Source: Sandaracinus amylolyticus
Lineage (GTDB): Bacteria; Myxococcota_A; Polyangia; Polyangiales; Sandaracinaceae
Length of the DNA: 64,000 bases
Assembly (NCBI RefSeq): GCF_021631985.1
Contig: NZ_CP070225.1
Coordinates: 4,092,001 to 4,156,000, forward strand
Direction of reading: 5' to 3'
The notes below the pieces were generated by a model. That model searched no databases, was not told where the DNA came from, and worked only from the letters and a program-made list of their open reading frames with translations. A program made the translations under genes and the position numbers. Of the stretch, positions 46,340-55,410 are shown one piece after another. Numbering within the stretch: the first letter of the stretch is position 1; each line of letters opens with the position of its first letter.

Positions 46340-47488
46340 TCAGTCGTCGTCGTCGTCGACCAGCGTGAGCGCCGGCGGCTCGGCGTCCTGGGCGTCTTCG
46401 TCGGCGCGCGCGCGCGGCTCACCCTCGGGCTCGGGGCGCGGGAAGCGCTTGCGCGGGCGAGGACGCGGGAGGACCACGTCGTGGAGCGCGTCGAGCATGC
46501 CGGGCGGCACGCTCGCGGGGACGATGTGGAGCGCGGGCTCGTCGTCGTCGGGCTCGTTCTCGAGCACGACGATCTCGGGGTCGTGCCAGCTGTCGCCAGG
46601 CAACGTCGCGCGCGGCGGCGCACCGCTCGGCGGGCGCGTCGGGTGCGGGCGCGTGGCGTGGCGCTTGGGCACCGCGAGCGCGCCGGGGAGCGCGTCGAAG
46701 CGGACCACCGCGATCGCGACGTTGTCGTCGGCGGGCGCGGCCTTCGCGCGCCCGAGCAGCGCCGAGACCTGACCGCGCACGCTGTTCGTGGTGAGCAGCG
46801 TCTCCGCGATCTCCTCGTCGGAGAGCACGTCCGTCAGGCCATCGGTGCAGAGCACGAACACGTCGCCGAGCGCGAGGTCGAACGAGCGCACCGAGACGCG
46901 CACCGTCTCGCTCATCCCGAGGGCGCGCGTGATCACGTTCTGCGGGAGCTTCGCGGCCTTGTCCTCGTCGATCTCGGGCGAGAGCTCGAGCACGTCCTGC
47001 GCGAGCGAGTGATCCTGCGTGAGCAGCTCGAGACGCCCGGCGCGGAGGCGATAGCAGCGCGAGTCGCCGACGTGCGCGACGTGCAGCACCGCGGTCTCGA
47101 GGTCGGGCGCGAGCGCGACCATCGTCGTGCCCATGCCGCGGTATCGATCGGCGGAGCGCGCGATCTCGAGCACCTCGCGGCTCGCGCGGTGGATGCCCGC
47201 GGAGAGCCGCCGCGCGAGGAGCGGCAGTCCGAGGCGATCGAAGGTCTGGGTGGTGCGCGCGCTCTTCTGGGTGGCCTCGAAGTGACGCGCGAGGCTCGCG
47301 AGCGCGATGCTGCTCGCGACGTTGCCCGCGTTCTCTCCGCCGGCACCGTCGGCGACCGCGAACAGCGCGAGATCCGGGCGCAGAAGGAAGCCGTCCTCGT
47401 CGTGCTCGCGACCGCCGATGTCCTTGTCGGCCGCAGCCATCACCTCGAGCGCGGGGGCGGGGGACGGCTGGCTCTCCGTCGACGTCAT
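46340..47488 (-). CDS. PP2C-type protein phosphatase (382 aa)
   Basis: A metal-dependent Ser/Thr phosphatase domain occupies about residues 18-270: [26 protein letters not shown] holds the metal Asp residues and [17 protein letters not shown] the GTT strand, [48 protein letters not shown] and [11 protein letters not shown] complete the PP2C motifs. The C-terminal about 110 residues form a Pro/Arg then acidic tail (TLVDDDDD). A Ser/Thr kinase gene lies about 6 kb away, but substrate pairing is unknown. Confidence 0.93.
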
Positions 47489-49755: not shown

Positions 49756-51170
49756 GCGCCGCGCACCGACGCGAGCACGCGCTCCGCCGCGCGCTCACCG
49801 CTCGCGATCGCGTCGGGGATGCCGACGCCGCGCATGCCGTTGCCCGCGAGCCCGAGCCGCTCGTGACGCGACGCGCGCGCTTCGATCGCCTCCACGCGCG
49901 CGATGTGCCCCACCTGGTAGACCGGCATCGCGCGCGGGTAGCGCATCACCTTGGTGAACGCGGGGCTCGCCTCGATGCCCATCAGCGCGCGGAGCTCGCG
50001 GCGTGCGCTGCGCACCAGCGCGTCGTCGTCGCGATCCGCGGCGTCGGGATCGTGCAATCCGCCGACGAAGGCGCGGATCAGCGCCCATCCCGCGGGCGCG
50101 CGGTTCGGCCACTTCGTGCTCGCCCACGTCGATGCGAGGATCGAGCGACGCTCCACCGCGGGCACCACGAAGCCGAACGCATCGAGCGGGTGCGGCACCT
50201 CGCTCTCGCGCCACGCGAACGTGACCGTCGCGGCCGAGCCGTGGGGGATCGCGTCGAGCCCGTCGGCGAGCGCACCGTCGACCTCGCGCAGCATCGACGC
50301 GATGCGGTGCGACGCGACCGCGAGCACCACCGCGTCGCACTCGCGGGCCTCGTCCGACTCGAGCACCACGCGCCACCCTTCCCCGTGGCGCTCGATCGCG
50401 CGCACCGGTGAATTCGTGCGGAGCCGCGGACCGATCGCGCGCACCAGCGCGTCGATCATCACCTGCATGCCGCGATCGAAGCCGATGAAGAGCCCGTAGC
50501 GCGCACCGCTCGCCGCATCCTGCTTCTTCGTGCTCGTCGCTGCGGCGCGCATCGCGCGGGTCACGCTGCCGCGCTCGCGCTCCATGCGCGTGAAGCGTGG
50601 CATCGTCGCCTCGAGCGAGAGCGTCTCGGCGTCGCTGCCGTAGATGCCCGAGATCATCGGCTGCGCGAGCCGCTCGAGCAGCTCGGCGCCGAAGCGACGA
50701 CGCACGAAGCGCGCGAGGCTCTCCTCGCCCTCTCTCGCGCGCCGGGGCGGCACGACCACCTCGAGCCCGGCGCGCATCTTCGCGCTCGGCGAGACGACCT
50801 GCGACGCGAGGAACGCGAACGGATCGACCGGCGCCATCATCGAGAAGCCCTCGGGGATGCGCACGAGGCGTCCTCCCGAGACGACGTACGCGCCGCGCTT
50901 CGCGGCGTTCGTGGAGACGACGCGATCCTCGATCCCGAGGCGCTTCACGAGCGAGAGCGCGTGCGGCTTCTCGGTGAGGATCGAGTCGGGCCCGAGCTCG
51001 ATCACGAACCCGTCGCGCTCCTCGGTGCGCAGCCATCCGCCGGGGCGCGCGCCGCCCTCGAGCACCTCGAGCTCGATCGACGGATCCTGCTCGAGCAGTC
51101 GGAACGCGGCCGCGAGGCCGCTGATCCCGGCGCCGACGACGATCACCCGCCGCGCGCCGCGCGCGCTCAT
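49752..51170 (-). CDS. hemY: Protoporphyrinogen oxidase, oxygen-dependent type
   Basis: A flavin enzyme of 472 residues. VIVVGAGISGLAAAFRLLE binds FAD; VLEGGARPGGWLRTEERDGFVIELGPDSIL, SLARFVRRRFGAELLERLAQPMISGIYGSDAETLSLEATMPRF and LAGNGMRGVGIPDAIASGERAA are characteristic of HemY/PPOX. It oxidises protoporphyrinogen or coproporphyrinogen in haem synthesis, usually at the membrane. Overlaps couple it to hemE upstream (ATGA) and to the TPR gene downstream. Confidence 0.93.
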   Translation of the reverse strand: MSARGARRVIVVGAGISGLAAAFRLLEQDPSIELEVLEGGARPGGWLRTEERDGFVIELGPDSILTEKPHALSLVKRLGIEDRVVSTNAAKRGAYVVSGGRLVRIPEGFSMMAPVDPFAFLASQVVSPSAKMRAGLEVVVPPRRAREGEESLARFVRRRFGAELLERLAQPMISGIYGSDAETLSLEATMPRFTRMERERGSVTRAMRAAATSTKKQDAASGARYGLFIGFDRGMQVMIDALVRAIGPRLRTNSPVRAIERHGEGWRVVLESDEARECDAVVLAVASHRIASMLREVDGALADGLDAIPHGSAATVTFAWRESEVPHPLDAFGFVVPAVERRSILASTWASTKWPNRAPAGWALIRAFVGGLHDPDAADRDDDALVRSARRELRALMGIEASPAFTKVMRYPRAMPVYQVGHIARVEAIEARASRHERLGLAGNGMRGVGIPDAIASGERAAERVLASVRGA

Positions 51171-52189
51171 CGCGAAGACGCCTCGTGCACGTGATCGACG
51201 AGCGCGCGCGCCTGCGCGAGATCGACCTGCGGGACCACACCGTGGCCGAGGTTGAACACGTGACCGGGACGACCACCCGCGGCGCGCAGCACCGCATTCG
51301 CCTTCTCGATCATCACCTCGCGCGGCGCGAGCAGCGCGATGGGATCCATGTTGCCCTGGACCGCGACGTCGCCGAGCGCGCGCCACGTCGAGCCCAGCTC
51401 GCAGCGCTGATCGAGCCCGATCACGTGACCCCCCGCCTGCTTCATGAGCGGATAGAGCGCGGGGTTGCCGGTGCCGAAGTGGATCGCGGGCACGCGATCC
51501 CCGAGCGCGGCGAAGATCGACGCGACGTGGGGCTGCACGTAGCGCGCGTAGTCGTCGGGCCCGAGCGCGCCGACCCACGAGTCGAAGAGCTGGACCGCCT
51601 CGGCGCCCGCATCGATCTGCGCGAGGAGGTACGCCGTGATCGCGCTCGAGAGCCGCCGCATCAGCTCGTGCCACGCGCCTTCGTCGGCGTACATGAAGCG
51701 CTTGGTCTGCGAGTACTCGCGCGAGCCGCCGCCCTCGATGACGTACGACGCGAGCGTGAACGGCGCGCCCGAGAACCCGATCAGGGGCACGCGCCCCGCG
51801 AGCGCCTTCTTGGTGCGGCGCACCGACTCCATCACGTAGCCGAGCGACGCGTTCGCATCGATCGACGGCGACACGCGATCGACGTCCGAGGCGAGTCGCA
51901 CGGGGCGCTCGATGCGCGGGCCGTCGTCCTTCGTGAACTCGAAGCCGATGCCGAGCGGCTCGAGCACGAGCAGGATGTCGGCGAACACGATCGCCGCGTC
52001 GACCCCGAGATCGTCGACCGCGCGGAGCGCGACCTGCGCGCAGAGATCGGGGTCGTGACAGAGCTCGAGGAACGAGACCTTCTCGCGGATCGCGCGGTAC
52101 GAAGGTTGGTATCTCCCCGCCTGCCGCATGAGCCACACGGGCGTGTAGGGAGTAGGCTTGCCGCGGCACGCATCGAGGAAGACCGACAT
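51167..52189 (-). CDS. hemE: Uroporphyrinogen decarboxylase
   Basis: A protein of 340 residues that decarboxylates uroporphyrinogen III to coproporphyrinogen III. Family landmarks are PVWLMRQAGRYQPSYR near the N-terminus, DAAIVFADILLVLEPLGIGFEF, GFSGAPFTLASYVIEGG, LFDSWVGALGPDDYARYVQP and ALYPLMKQAGGHVIGLD. It is the first gene of the coupled hemE-hemY-TPR unit. No hemN, hemH or hemB is present in the window. Confidence 0.96.
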   Translation of the reverse strand: MSVFLDACRGKPTPYTPVWLMRQAGRYQPSYRAIREKVSFLELCHDPDLCAQVALRAVDDLGVDAAIVFADILLVLEPLGIGFEFTKDDGPRIERPVRLASDVDRVSPSIDANASLGYVMESVRRTKKALAGRVPLIGFSGAPFTLASYVIEGGGSREYSQTKRFMYADEGAWHELMRRLSSAITAYLLAQIDAGAEAVQLFDSWVGALGPDDYARYVQPHVASIFAALGDRVPAIHFGTGNPALYPLMKQAGGHVIGLDQRCELGSTWRALGDVAVQGNMDPIALLAPREVMIEKANAVLRAAGGRPGHVFNLGHGVVPQVDLAQARALVDHVHEASSR

Positions 52190-52226
52190 GGGCCCGGCAG
52201 TCTACGCGCGCCGCGCGGCGCGCGCA

Positions 52227-53990
52227 TCAGGCGTCGGGCTCGCCTTCGAGCGCGGTCGCGAGCGCCTCGTAGCGCGCAGCAGCGAACGTCGCGAACGACG
52301 ACGCGCCCGTGGCTTCGCGCAGGGGATCCGCGGGCGCGAGCTGCGCGTGCTCGAGGCGCGCGATCAGGGAGCGCACCTCGCGCTCGTCGAGATCGACCCG
52401 CGCCGCGACGACGTCGGGTGGGATGGGATCGCTGGTCGCGAGCACGACGAGCGAGGGATCGCCCGACGCGCCGTGCGACGCGATGCGCCCGCTGCGATCG
52501 AGGTACGCGTACATGCCCGCGACGTCGGCGCTGCCCTCGCGCAGCGCGGCGAGCGCGGCCTTGTACGAGCCGACGAAGCGCTGCTCGAGGAAGGTCTGCT
52601 CGGGCTCGATGCCCGCAGCGCGCAGCACCACGCGCGGCATCGTGTAGCCCGCGGCCGACCAGCGATCGACCCACGCGGCGCGCGTCCCCGTGAGCGCGAA
52701 GCGCTCGAGCCGCGGCGCGCGCGCGCGATGCCCGACGAGCACGCCCGCGTAGTCGTCGGCGTCCTCGAGCTCCACACACGCGAGGCCGCGCGCGATCTCG
52801 TTCTGGTTCGCGCGCGCGAACGCGACCGGAGAGAGCCACGCGAGATCGAGCTCGCCCACGTCGAGCGCCTCGACGAGATCGGCGTGGCTCGCATGACGCA
52901 ACAACGTGATCTCGATGCCGAGATGCGAGCCCAGCGCGAGCGCGGTCTGCGGCGAGAGGTCGCGCTCCTTGCTGGCGACCAGGCCGAGCCGCAGGCGACC
53001 GGCGCGCGCTGCGATCGCCGCGCGGACGCGGGCGCCACGACGCGCGAACATCGTGGGCTCCGCCTCGTCGAAGGGCTCCGGCTCGAGATCGTCGAGCGGC
53101 ACGTCGATCGAGGGCGCGATCGGCTTCCACGCGCGCAGCGCGCTCTCGATCGCGCTGCGCAGCTCGTCCATCGTCGCCCACCGTCGCTCCCGCTCGCGCA
53201 GCAGCGCGCGATCGATCGCAGCCGCGAGTGCCGAGGACGCCGACGGCGCGCGGCTCGCGAGCGGCGGAGGACGTCCCTCGACGATGCGAAACGCGACGTC
53301 CGCGACGCGATCACCCTCGAAGGGCAGGCGTCCCGAGAGCGTCTGGTACCAGACCACGCCCATCGACCACACGTCGGTCTGCGGGCCGACCTCCTTGGGC
53401 GCGACGAGCTGCTCGGGCGACATGTGGCTCGGCGTGCCGACGACGAGCCCGGTCGCGGTGTAGTCGCCGTCGTCCTGCTCGAACGACTTCGTGAGACCGA
53501 AGTCGATCAGCTTCGGCACCAGCTCGTCCGAGCCGCGACCGCGCCACGCGAGGTAGATGTTCGATGGCTTCACGTCGCGATGCACGAGCCCCGCGGCGTG
53601 CGCGGCCGAGAGCGCGTCCATCACCGGCACGAGGATCTGCGCGGCGCGCGCGGGCGCGAGCGGGCCTTCGCGCCGCAGGCACGTGATGAGGTCCTCGCCG
53701 ACGAGGAGCTCCTGGACGAGATAGAGCCAGCCGCGATCGGGATCGCGATCGGCGTCGAGCACCGTGACGACGTTCGGATGCACGAGGCGCGCGGCGTGGC
53801 GGGCCTCGCGCAGGAAGCGCGCGGTCGCGGCCTCGTCGTGCTCGGGCGCGGCGAGCAGCTTGATCGCGACGCGGCGCTCGGTCGCCTCGTTCTCGGCCTC
53901 GAACACGACGCCGAAGGCGCCTCGCCCGAGCTCCCGCACCACGCGGTACTTGCGCGCGATCCTCGCGCCTCGCTCGAGCCCGAAGTGCAT
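52227..53990 (-). CDS. Ser/Thr protein kinase fused to a PhnD-like ligand-binding domain
   Basis: A protein of 587 residues. Kinase domain about 14-280: ELGRGAFGVVFEAEN glycine loop, VAIKLL Lys, HRDVKPSNIYL catalytic loop, IDFGLTKS, GTPSHMSPEQ. A Pro/acid-rich linker follows, then about 335-565 a phosphonate/phosphite-binding-protein (PhnD) type domain: LRLGLVASKERDLSPQTALALGSHLGIEITLL, ELDLAWLSPVAFARA, AAGYTMPRVVLRAAGIEPE and FVGSYKAALAALREGSADVAGMYAY. No membrane helix or signal separates them, so the sensor half must be cytoplasmic. The natural reading is a one-component kinase whose activity is set by a small ligand. Confidence 0.88.
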   Translation of the reverse strand: MHFGLERGARIARKYRVVRELGRGAFGVVFEAENEATERRVAIKLLAAPEHDEAATARFLREARHAARLVHPNVVTVLDADRDPDRGWLYLVQELLVGEDLITCLRREGPLAPARAAQILVPVMDALSAAHAAGLVHRDVKPSNIYLAWRGRGSDELVPKLIDFGLTKSFEQDDGDYTATGLVVGTPSHMSPEQLVAPKEVGPQTDVWSMGVVWYQTLSGRLPFEGDRVADVAFRIVEGRPPPLASRAPSASSALAAAIDRALLRERERRWATMDELRSAIESALRAWKPIAPSIDVPLDDLEPEPFDEAEPTMFARRGARVRAAIAARAGRLRLGLVASKERDLSPQTALALGSHLGIEITLLRHASHADLVEALDVGELDLAWLSPVAFARANQNEIARGLACVELEDADDYAGVLVGHRARAPRLERFALTGTRAAWVDRWSAAGYTMPRVVLRAAGIEPEQTFLEQRFVGSYKAALAALREGSADVAGMYAYLDRSGRIASHGASGDPSLVVLATSDPIPPDVVAARVDLDEREVRSLIARLEHAQLAPADPLREATGASSFATFAAARYEALATALEGEPDA

Positions 53991-54063
53991 CCGCGCCGTC
54001 GAGGATACCAGTCCCGACCGGGCGCTTGCGGACGTCGCGAGCTTGCCTTCTCATTCGCCCCGC

Positions 54064-55410
54064 ATGGCTACCCGAGCACGTGTCCTCGTCATCGGCGCCG
54101 GCCTCGCCGGCCTGCGCACCGCCGACCTCCTCGTCCGACGTGGTGAGACCGACGTGCTGGTCCTCGAGGCGCGCGATCGGGTCGGCGGTCGCACACTGTC
54201 GCGCCCGCTCGGGAAGGCGACGTTCGATCTCGGCGGGCAGTGGATCGGCCCCTCGCAGCGCCGCGCGCAGGCGCTGGTGCGCGAGCTCGGGATCGCGACG
54301 TTCCCGACCTACGACACCGGCGCGAAGGTGCTCGATCTCGCGGGCAAGCTCTCGCGCTACGAGGGCACGATCCCGCGCCTCGATCCGCTCTCGCTGCTCG
54401 AGCTGCAGGTCGTGCTCTCGCGCATCGACTCGCGCCGCAAGGCCGTGCGCACCGACGCGCCGCACGAGTCGCCGCGCGCGGCCGAGGACGACTCGCGCAC
54501 CGTCGCGTCGTGGGCGCGCACCCGCGTCCGATCGCCGCACGTGCGCGCGCTGCTCGAGGCCTCGGCGCGCGTGGTGTTCGGCGCGGAGCTCGGGGAGATC
54601 TCGCTGCTCCACTTCCTGTTCTACGCGCAGGCGGCGGGCGGGCTGATGCCGCTCGTCGAGATCCAGGGCGGCGCGCAGGAGACGCGCTTCGTGGGCGGCG
54701 CGCAGGAGATCTCGACGCGCATCGCGAGCTCGCTCGGCGACCGGGTGCGGCTCTCGACGCCGGTGCGTCGGATCTCGGTGCGCGGCGGCGAGGTGATGGT
54801 CGACGCGGATCGCGGCACCTACCTCGCCGAGCGCGTCGTGGTCGCGGTGCCGCCGGTGCTGGCGCGCACGATCGAATTCGATCCGCTCCTGCCGACGCAG
54901 CGCGCGCACCTGTTCGAGCGCGCGTTCCAGGGCAGCACGATCAAGTGCCTCGCGCTCTACGATCGTCCGTTCTGGCGCGAGCGCGGCTTGTCCGGTGAAG
55001 CGGTGAGCGATCGTGGGCCGCTGGCGGTGGCGTTCGACAACACCTCGCACGACGGCGCGCAGCCCGCGCTGCTCGGGTTCTCGGTGGGCGCCCTCGCGCG
55101 CGAGCACGCGGCGCGGTCGCGCGCCGATCGCCGGCGCGTGGTGCTCGAGCGCTTCGCGCGGTGGTACGGCGAGGAGGCGCTGCGCCCGCTCGAGTACGTG
55201 GAGCACGACTGGAGCGAGGAGCCTTGGAGCCGCGGCTGTCCGATCAGCCTCTTCGGCACCGGCGCGCTCAGCGAGAGCGGCGCCGCGCTGCGCACGCCGT
55301 GTGGCCCGATCCACTGGGCCGGCACCGAGACCGCGCGCGAGCACCACGGCTTCCTCGAGGGCGCGCTGGAGAGCGCGGAGCGCGTCGTCCACGAGATCGC
55401 GGCGCGCTGA
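54064..55410 (+). CDS. Flavin monoamine oxidase family protein
   Basis: A FAD-dependent amine oxidase of 448 residues. VLVIGAGLAGLRTADLLVRRGETDVLVLEARDRVGGRT is the N-terminal FAD fold and DLGGQWIGPSQ the second FAD loop. SLLHFLFYAQAAGGLMPLVEIQGGAQETRFVGGAQEIS is typical of plant/animal MAO-like proteins, and PIHWAGTETAREHHGFLEGALESAERV is the C-terminal FAD motif. No Cys for covalent flavin is visible. Substrate may be a primary amine or polyamine. It is divergent from the kinase gene (73-base gap). Confidence 0.9.
   Translation: MATRARVLVIGAGLAGLRTADLLVRRGETDVLVLEARDRVGGRTLSRPLGKATFDLGGQWIGPSQRRAQALVRELGIATFPTYDTGAKVLDLAGKLSRYEGTIPRLDPLSLLELQVVLSRIDSRRKAVRTDAPHESPRAAEDDSRTVASWARTRVRSPHVRALLEASARVVFGAELGEISLLHFLFYAQAAGGLMPLVEIQGGAQETRFVGGAQEISTRIASSLGDRVRLSTPVRRISVRGGEVMVDADRGTYLAERVVVAVPPVLARTIEFDPLLPTQRAHLFERAFQGSTIKCLALYDRPFWRERGLSGEAVSDRGPLAVAFDNTSHDGAQPALLGFSVGALAREHAARSRADRRRVVLERFARWYGEEALRPLEYVEHDWSEEPWSRGCPISLFGTGALSESGAALRTPCGPIHWAGTETAREHHGFLEGALESAERVVHEIAAR

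Follow-up and report, generated by a model that had tools for sequence, protein, structure and literature searches.

Does a bacterial protein kinase that carries the fold of a phosphonate-binding protein sense phosphorus compounds inside the cell, or has the fold been turned to another ligand? The question is raised by a gene in a 64,000-nucleotide stretch of Sandaracinus amylolyticus DNA (the window), for which it had been proposed that a complete Ser/Thr kinase is joined to a PhnD-like domain, with no membrane helix or export signal, as a new one-protein sensor of phosphorus or of a small molecule. The architecture stood up to analysis; the phosphorus ligand fared less well.

Architecture and topology of the protein

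The gene and the parts of its product are as follows.

52227..53990, minus strand: soluble Ser/Thr kinase with a PhnD-like (PF12974) domain, 587 aa (open reading frame list, Pfam, AlphaFold2)
53181..53948, minus strand: Hanks-type kinase domain, residues 15-270 (PF00069, E 2.5e-45)
53007..53120, minus strand: linker, residues 291-328, without a hydrophobic segment; pLDDT <50, with a helix drawn at 314-327
52245..53000, minus strand: PhnD-like type 2 periplasmic-binding-protein (Venus flytrap) domain, residues 331-582 (PF12974, AlphaFold2)

The coordinates given in the original prediction, 52227-53990, were correct and the strand is minus, the gene running from an ATG at 53990 to a stop codon that ends at 52227. 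Its codon use fits a real gene, whereas a 662-codon open reading frame that overlaps it on the plus strand (52158-54146) failed the codon filter and was set aside as a high-GC shadow. Two further genomes from the genus were searched, and one of them (G001) contains an orthologue with 92% identity (L038); comparison with it gives a dN/dS of 0.16 overall, 0.14 for the kinase and 0.19 for the binding domain. Because third-position GC is 0.92 and dN/dS is 0.16, the gene is real and under purifying selection.

The kinase half scores 155.3 bits against a PF00069 cut-off of 31.7 and retains the full motif set (GxGxxG, VAIK, HRDVKPSN, DFG and SPE), so that the protein is predicted to be capable of phosphotransfer; the family model NF052427 (StpK7MSMEG_1200) covers this half only, at 134.7 bits against a cut-off of 900. 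In a fold comparison with the whole model (full-length AlphaFold2 pLDDT 85.9, pTM 0.83), the solved structures nearest to the kinase half were Stk1, PknA and PknB (Z 32) and the best 50 rows consisted of kinases only, for which reason the sensor domain was folded and searched separately. The structure prediction that had been proposed as a check returned a confident flytrap domain (pLDDT 93.0, pTM 0.89), and PF12974 (Phosphonate-bd) matches residues 352-546 at E 8.3e-27, with 94.5 bits against a cut-off of 27. When VIA-align was used to rank Foldseek's best 1000, ArrX came top (Z 25.0, 3.0 Å over 244 residues), followed by PtxB (Z 23.6, 3.5 Å over 243 residues, with a profile match to the same PtxB at E 3.1e-26), entries for XAC2383 (Z 23.1-23.2, 2.9 Å over 250-251 residues), HtxB, AioX and E. 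coli PhnD (Z 20.8-22.1) and then transferrins (about 18). The Prochlorococcus PtxB also gave a profile match (E 2.9e-27), and 7t1m, an entry titled "bacterial sterol transporter," appeared in the Foldseek list with a TMq of 0.72. Curated scores for the narrower families were not reached by the window protein: TIGR03431 (PhnD) gave 53.9 against 261.1 bits and TIGR01098 gave 79.4 against 112.05 bits. The C-terminal half is thus a true PhnD-family Venus-flytrap fold, with both PF00069 and PF12974 above their cut-offs in one chain, as had been predicted.

The absence of a membrane helix and of an export signal was likewise borne out. The maximum 19-residue Kyte-Doolittle mean is 1.41 across the whole open reading frame and 0.62 within the linker; the protein begins MHFGLERGARIARKYR, the kinase starts at residue 15, and neither an export nor a lipoprotein signal was seen. 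Linkers of the 14 in-frame soluble fusions described below contain no hydrophobic helix (maximum 1.25), while the same linker in five membrane-anchored relatives reaches 1.95-2.91. Since hydropathy reveals no membrane stretch and the kinase starts too close to the N-terminus for a signal peptide to precede it, the kinase and sensor domains should both be cytosolic. Neither a C-terminus of a non-PhnD kind nor a membrane segment, the two findings named beforehand as contrary to the prediction, turned up when they were looked for. Sensing inside the cell, as originally put forward, is the natural reading because no membrane segment parts the two domains and the soluble architecture recurs in relatives; the cytosolic location on which it depends is itself predicted.

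A rebuilt pocket and its distribution in myxobacteria

Two features of the sensor domain bear on the ligand.

52632..52673, minus strand: altered anion-hole motif WVDRWSAAGYTMPR, residues 440-453, replacing the S-T-S of phosphite/phosphonate binders (alignment)
52563..52565, minus strand: Tyr476, replacing the ligand-binding His of PtxB and AioX (alignment; roles as given in passages of PMC5700983 and PMC5908839)

Oxyanion contacts in Te_PtxB are listed in a passage of PMC5700983 as Tyr55, Tyr100, Ser130, Thr131, Ser132 and His160, and AioX is described in part of PMC5908839 as having Ser-x-Ser, His and two Tyr in common with PhnD. At the six Te_PtxB positions the window protein has, by alignment, His, Tyr, Ser, Ala, Ala and Tyr; Ser445, the first Ser of the motif, and Tyr414, one pocket Tyr, are therefore retained, and an Asp that is present in nearly all relatives replaces the capping Tyr of PtxB.

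The architecture search that had been advised found both a paralogue in the same genome and a set of related fusions. The genome has seven PF12974 matches, six of them over the cut-off and two fused in frame to a kinase; the paralogue (L003/L040) has 612 aa and is 41% identical overall to the window protein. With the sensor domain as the query, matches at E 1e-3 or better were obtained in 37 of 56 genomes, its own included. The motif [AV]WVD[PRN]WSA, run over 84,980 species genomes, gave 21 confirmed loci, all labelled myxobacteria or "Deltaproteobacteria," of which 8 have an in-frame kinase, 1 has the kinase in another frame (L098), 1 is cut by a contig end (L083) and 11 have the domain alone. 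After pooling, 14 nonredundant in-frame soluble fusions remained, all in one myxobacterial clade: the window protein, L003, L038, L039, L047, L048, L078 to L082, L084, L093 and L096. Loci were fetched from the domain-search list (40 places) and from a later profile-search list (20 places), and because they were picked mainly for long open reading frames the proportions of architectures are not a census. In that profile search (up to seven candidates scored per genome), 11 matches from 8 genomes scored more than 317 bits and the next one 202 bits, a gap that is partly there by construction because 10 of the 11 places had themselves contributed to the query profile. WSAAG was also sought with a strict DNA pattern, which hit 7 of 377 genomes but missed the paralogue in the window's own genome and was left out of the counts. 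One member of the soluble clade (L048:2211-5741, plus strand) joins a flytrap to a pseudokinase in which the VAIK Lys and HRD are lost and DLG replaces DFG.

Kinases are combined with the same fold in other ways. A clear hydrophobic helix separates kinase from domain in L066, L070, L071, L074 and L075, and a single genome contributes four more kinase-transmembrane-PhnD proteins (L147 to L150), an expansion of possible oxyanion receptor kinases. Two further soluble kinase-PhnD proteins, L141 and L142, come from another part of the class. PhnD-like domains also occur in one chain with an ABC permease (PF00528) in L062, L064, L065, L067, L068, L072 and L073, the permease having been identified by Pfam in L062, L064 and L067 and judged by membrane helices in the other four. 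In a 78-row tree, built after 27 rows (including AioX) had been removed as duplicates, near-duplicates, long branches or otherwise redundant, 8 membrane kinases form one group (99/94), L141 and L142 another (100/99), and 16 target-clade rows with four stand-alone rows a third (99/92). A 59-row tree built without L141, L142 and L147 to L150, after removal of 11 duplicates, agrees with it and places six rows without a kinase inside the target clade. The deepest branches are weakly supported, so that the number of fusion events stays unsettled and a single origin of the three groups is not implied.

The pocket differs between these groups. The 14 in-frame fusions together with L098 and L083 make 16 clade rows, and the S-x-S-H core is broken in every one of them: the first Ser is always kept, 15 rows have Ala and one has Gly at the third position, and the His position is occupied by Tyr in 11, Phe in 2, Asn in 1 and His in 2 (L079 and L082). 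L079 and L081 came solely from a motif search in which the first two residues of S-A-A are specified; when both are left out, each of the 14 remaining rows still has an altered third position and a broken core. WSAAG or WSAGG is present in all 12 of the soluble kinase fusions that were retrieved on overall similarity. S-x-S and His are intact, on the other hand, in all 9 membrane kinases (near-identical L066 and L071 both counted; one has Ser-Ala-Ser and two have Ser-Ser-Ser), in all 7 permease fusions, where the site takes the STS-H form, and in both L141 and L142. Because these last two are soluble and keep S-x-S-H, a soluble location alone does not go with a rebuilt pocket, and they are better candidates than the window protein for true intracellular oxyanion sensors. 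SAA-H or SAS-H pockets are found in many stand-alone and wider relatives, which indicates that the Thr and second Ser have been lost more widely than the His.

In a 16-row alignment of the sensor domain, comprising 11 kinase-fused relatives chosen by architecture and also L044, L046, L053 and L076, which were chosen for the motif, WVDxWSAAGYxxPR holds 8 of the 15 invariant columns, more than any other stretch of the domain. A 22-row alignment is no evidence for conservation of the motif, since 21 of its rows had been collected by WVDxWSA. As judged from the 12 fusions and the 16-row alignment, the altered pocket has been conserved within the soluble clade.

Stand-alone PhnD-like proteins are also numerous in myxobacteria (L001, L002, L004, L006 and others); several have no evident signal peptide by eye, and in many of them SCAG, SAAG or SASG replaces STS. 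They are possibly a family of cytosolic binding proteins.

Gene neighborhood and competing explanations

Immediately downstream of the kinase gene lies a gene of heme synthesis.

51167..52189, minus strand: hemE (uroporphyrinogen decarboxylase), starting 37 bp downstream of the kinase gene (PF01208, E 1e-121)

It is probably cotranscribed with the kinase gene and is followed on the same strand by a PF01593 flavin oxidase, which may be protoporphyrinogen oxidase; the upstream neighbor, a flavin amine oxidase gene, is divergent. The kinase-hemE order is also found in the same-genus genome, at L038, with a gap of 11 bp. When 14 window neighbors were used as queries against 61 loci (L038 to L098), most of them covering about 5 kb per side, only L038 matched at E 1e-10. 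Of five neighbors of other fusions scanned with Pfam, one had no match and the others encode a methyltransferase, a P-type ATPase, an aldehyde dehydrogenase and a second kinase; no theme links them. A PP2C/SpoIIE-type phosphatase gene is present in the window at 46340-47488 on the minus strand, about 5 kb from the kinase gene. At L040:3021-4928 (minus strand), the same-genome paralogue has immediately downstream of it a further Ser/Thr kinase gene, whose product contains a PEGA domain.

Two other contexts were considered and rejected. Phosphonate uptake or catabolism found no counterpart in the window's own genome, where the best scores were 182.4 bits against 266.1 for TIGR02315 (PhnC) and 29.3 against 216.7 for TIGR01097 (PhnE) and PF06007 (PhnJ) had no match, these three being the models tested. 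A partner ABC transporter of the PhnC/PhnE type, as PhnD- and PtxB-like proteins have, is thus missing at cut-off from the genome, and the neighbors are heme and other genes. A split version of the system, with a kinase gene beside a stand-alone sensor, was seen at 2 of 11 stand-alone loci (L089 and L090), which a rough estimate does not place clearly above expectation for kinase-rich genomes; the window's own genome alone has at least 153 kinase matches (150 of 253 candidates scored). Three divergent neighbors of stand-alone loci were scanned and proved to be an M16 peptidase, the L090 kinase and one without a match.

We suggest, with a probability of roughly 60%, that the window protein is a cytosolic, one-chain, ligand-gated Ser/Thr kinase whose remodelled pocket would accept an intracellular metabolite. 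A small molecule would close the C-terminal flytrap, closure would alter the activity or the oligomeric state of the Hanks-type kinase through the flexible linker, and the kinase would then phosphorylate Ser/Thr targets. The ligand held in the W-S-A-A-G-Y pocket would most likely not be phosphate, phosphite or phosphonate bound in the conventional manner; a phosphorus ligand is possible but less likely because the pocket has changed.

The phosphorus ligand of the original prediction is the point at which that prediction loses ground. An intracellular sensor that binds phosphate, phosphite, phosphonate or a nucleotide-like phosphorylated metabolite, and so informs the kinase of the supply of phosphorus or energy, would suit the nearest structures, which include PtxB, ArrX, AioX in a phosphate-bound form and XAC2383 (one entry titled "bound to ATP"), and would make sense of the retention of Ser445 and Tyr414. 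Against this, S-T-S has become S-A-A, the His has become Tyr and the first Tyr has become His, the capping Tyr has gone as well, and S-x-S-H is broken clade-wide; phosphate is millimolar in the cytosol, enough to keep a classical binder saturated; and the phosphonate transporter components PhnC and PhnE and the C-P lyase component PhnJ are absent from the genome at curated cut-offs. Phosphite in PtxB is held, according to the relevant passage of PMC5700983, through the very S-T-S, His and Tyr side chains, of which two of the three S-T-S residues, the His and the first Tyr are replaced here. We consider such a sensor unlikely. The same loss of oxyanion-binding side chains can also signal a protein-protein role, the flytrap acting without any small molecule as a docking scaffold for substrates or partners of the kinase, a reading to which the variable His position (Tyr 11, Phe 2, Asn 1 and His 2 of 16) and the pseudokinase of L048 lend some color; but the segment that holds the ligand site is the most conserved of the domain, with 8 of the 15 invariant columns. 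Such conservation is more in keeping with a pocket than with an exposed docking face and leaves docking rather unlikely.

Regulation of heme synthesis, in which the kinase is cotranscribed with hemE and the PF01593 oxidase and senses a tetrapyrrole or a precursor, is suggested by the 37-bp spacing and by the order kept, with an 11-bp gap, at the same-genus locus L038, but it is very unlikely given that hemE was matched at none of the 60 other loci searched, the paralogues L039 and L040 included. As for a chance fusion, an annotation artifact or a decaying gene, long shadow frames do arise in high-GC DNA, and two rows have a kinase that is out of frame (L098) or off the contig (L083); the 14 in-frame copies in one clade, the dN/dS of 0.16 and the confident folding of both domains make this extremely improbable.

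A ligand-gated cytosolic kinase remains our preferred account of the window protein, and a broader proposal can be attached to it with more reserve: that myxobacteria possess cytosolic Venus-flytrap kinases in which a periplasmic fold has been moved inside, its pocket rebuilt for an internal metabolite of a ligand class new to PF12974, and the kinase placed under direct allosteric control. This we regard as tentative, at somewhat less than even odds.

Relation to known systems

What stimulates bacterial Ser/Thr kinases is described in part of PMC6069109 as an outstanding question; a soluble chain with a kinase and a foldable, conserved ligand domain makes that question directly addressable by ligand screening. 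The same source notes single polypeptides that combine a Ser/Thr kinase with a solute-binding protein (SBP), namely, MSMEG_1200 and "a further 260 SBP kinases," with ligand control proposed as it is here, and the window protein likewise has a kinase and an SBP-fold domain in a single chain; the comparison is made without SBP family or topology, which the passage omits. With such fusions already in print (in that passage) and several types of PhnD-kinase in myxobacteria, the claim of a new one-protein sensor does not hold for the kind, to which the window protein adds a version. What is new here, going by the predicted architectures, is the PF12974 version of the kinase-SBP fusion, soluble and with a rebuilt pocket; no description of a soluble PF12974-Ser/Thr kinase was found among the matches listed, an absence that carries little weight because it concerns open-licence literature only.

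Solute-binding proteins and Ser/Thr signaling are coupled differently elsewhere. GlnH-GlnX-PknG, as outlined in PMC6069109, also lets a solute-binding protein control a soluble Ser/Thr kinase, but it does so through three proteins across the membrane and with an amino-acid ligand, whereas the window protein is one soluble chain. In Sorangium cellulosum, SpoIIE-type phosphatases with a periplasmic binding domain (pfam00532), noted in part of PMC2887360, are again myxobacterial fusions of a Ser/Thr signaling enzyme, but of a phosphatase with a different binding-protein family.

Within PF12974, the phosphite, hypophosphite and phosphonate binders PtxB, HtxB and PhnD share family and fold with the window protein; PtxB is nevertheless a transport protein with an STS-H site (in the passage of PMC5700983), and the window protein has a broken site and no export signal. 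The arsenic-oxyanion sensors AioX and ArrX show that PF12974 is used for signaling, and ArrX has the closest fold among the best 1000, but they are periplasmic, separate from their histidine kinase and retain Ser-x-Ser-His, as far as is described in part of PMC5908839, unlike the window protein. A survey mentions A. brasilense two-component proteins that contain a PF12974 domain. BstB, which binds sterols according to a passage of PMC10942540, indicates that nonoxyanion ligands occur in the family; it is there a transport protein with no kinase fusion, and its likeness to the window protein lies in the PF12974 fold. For the PhnD-like XAC2383 of Xanthomonas citri, represented by chloride-bound and ATP-bound entries, the likeness is again one of fold. 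XAC2383 is said to be a separate, periplasmic protein and reportedly works with a diguanylate cyclase.

The kinase-transmembrane-PhnD receptors of Myxococcota (L066, L070, L071, L074, L075 and L147 to L150) have the same domains in the same order and in the same phylum as the window protein, but they possess a membrane helix in the linker, where the window protein reaches a maximum of 0.62, they keep S-x-S-H, and they belong to a separate clade. Set side by side, the rebuilt-site clade, these intact-site membrane relatives and the intact-site L141 and L142 constitute a natural experiment on the change of ligand in a binding fold.
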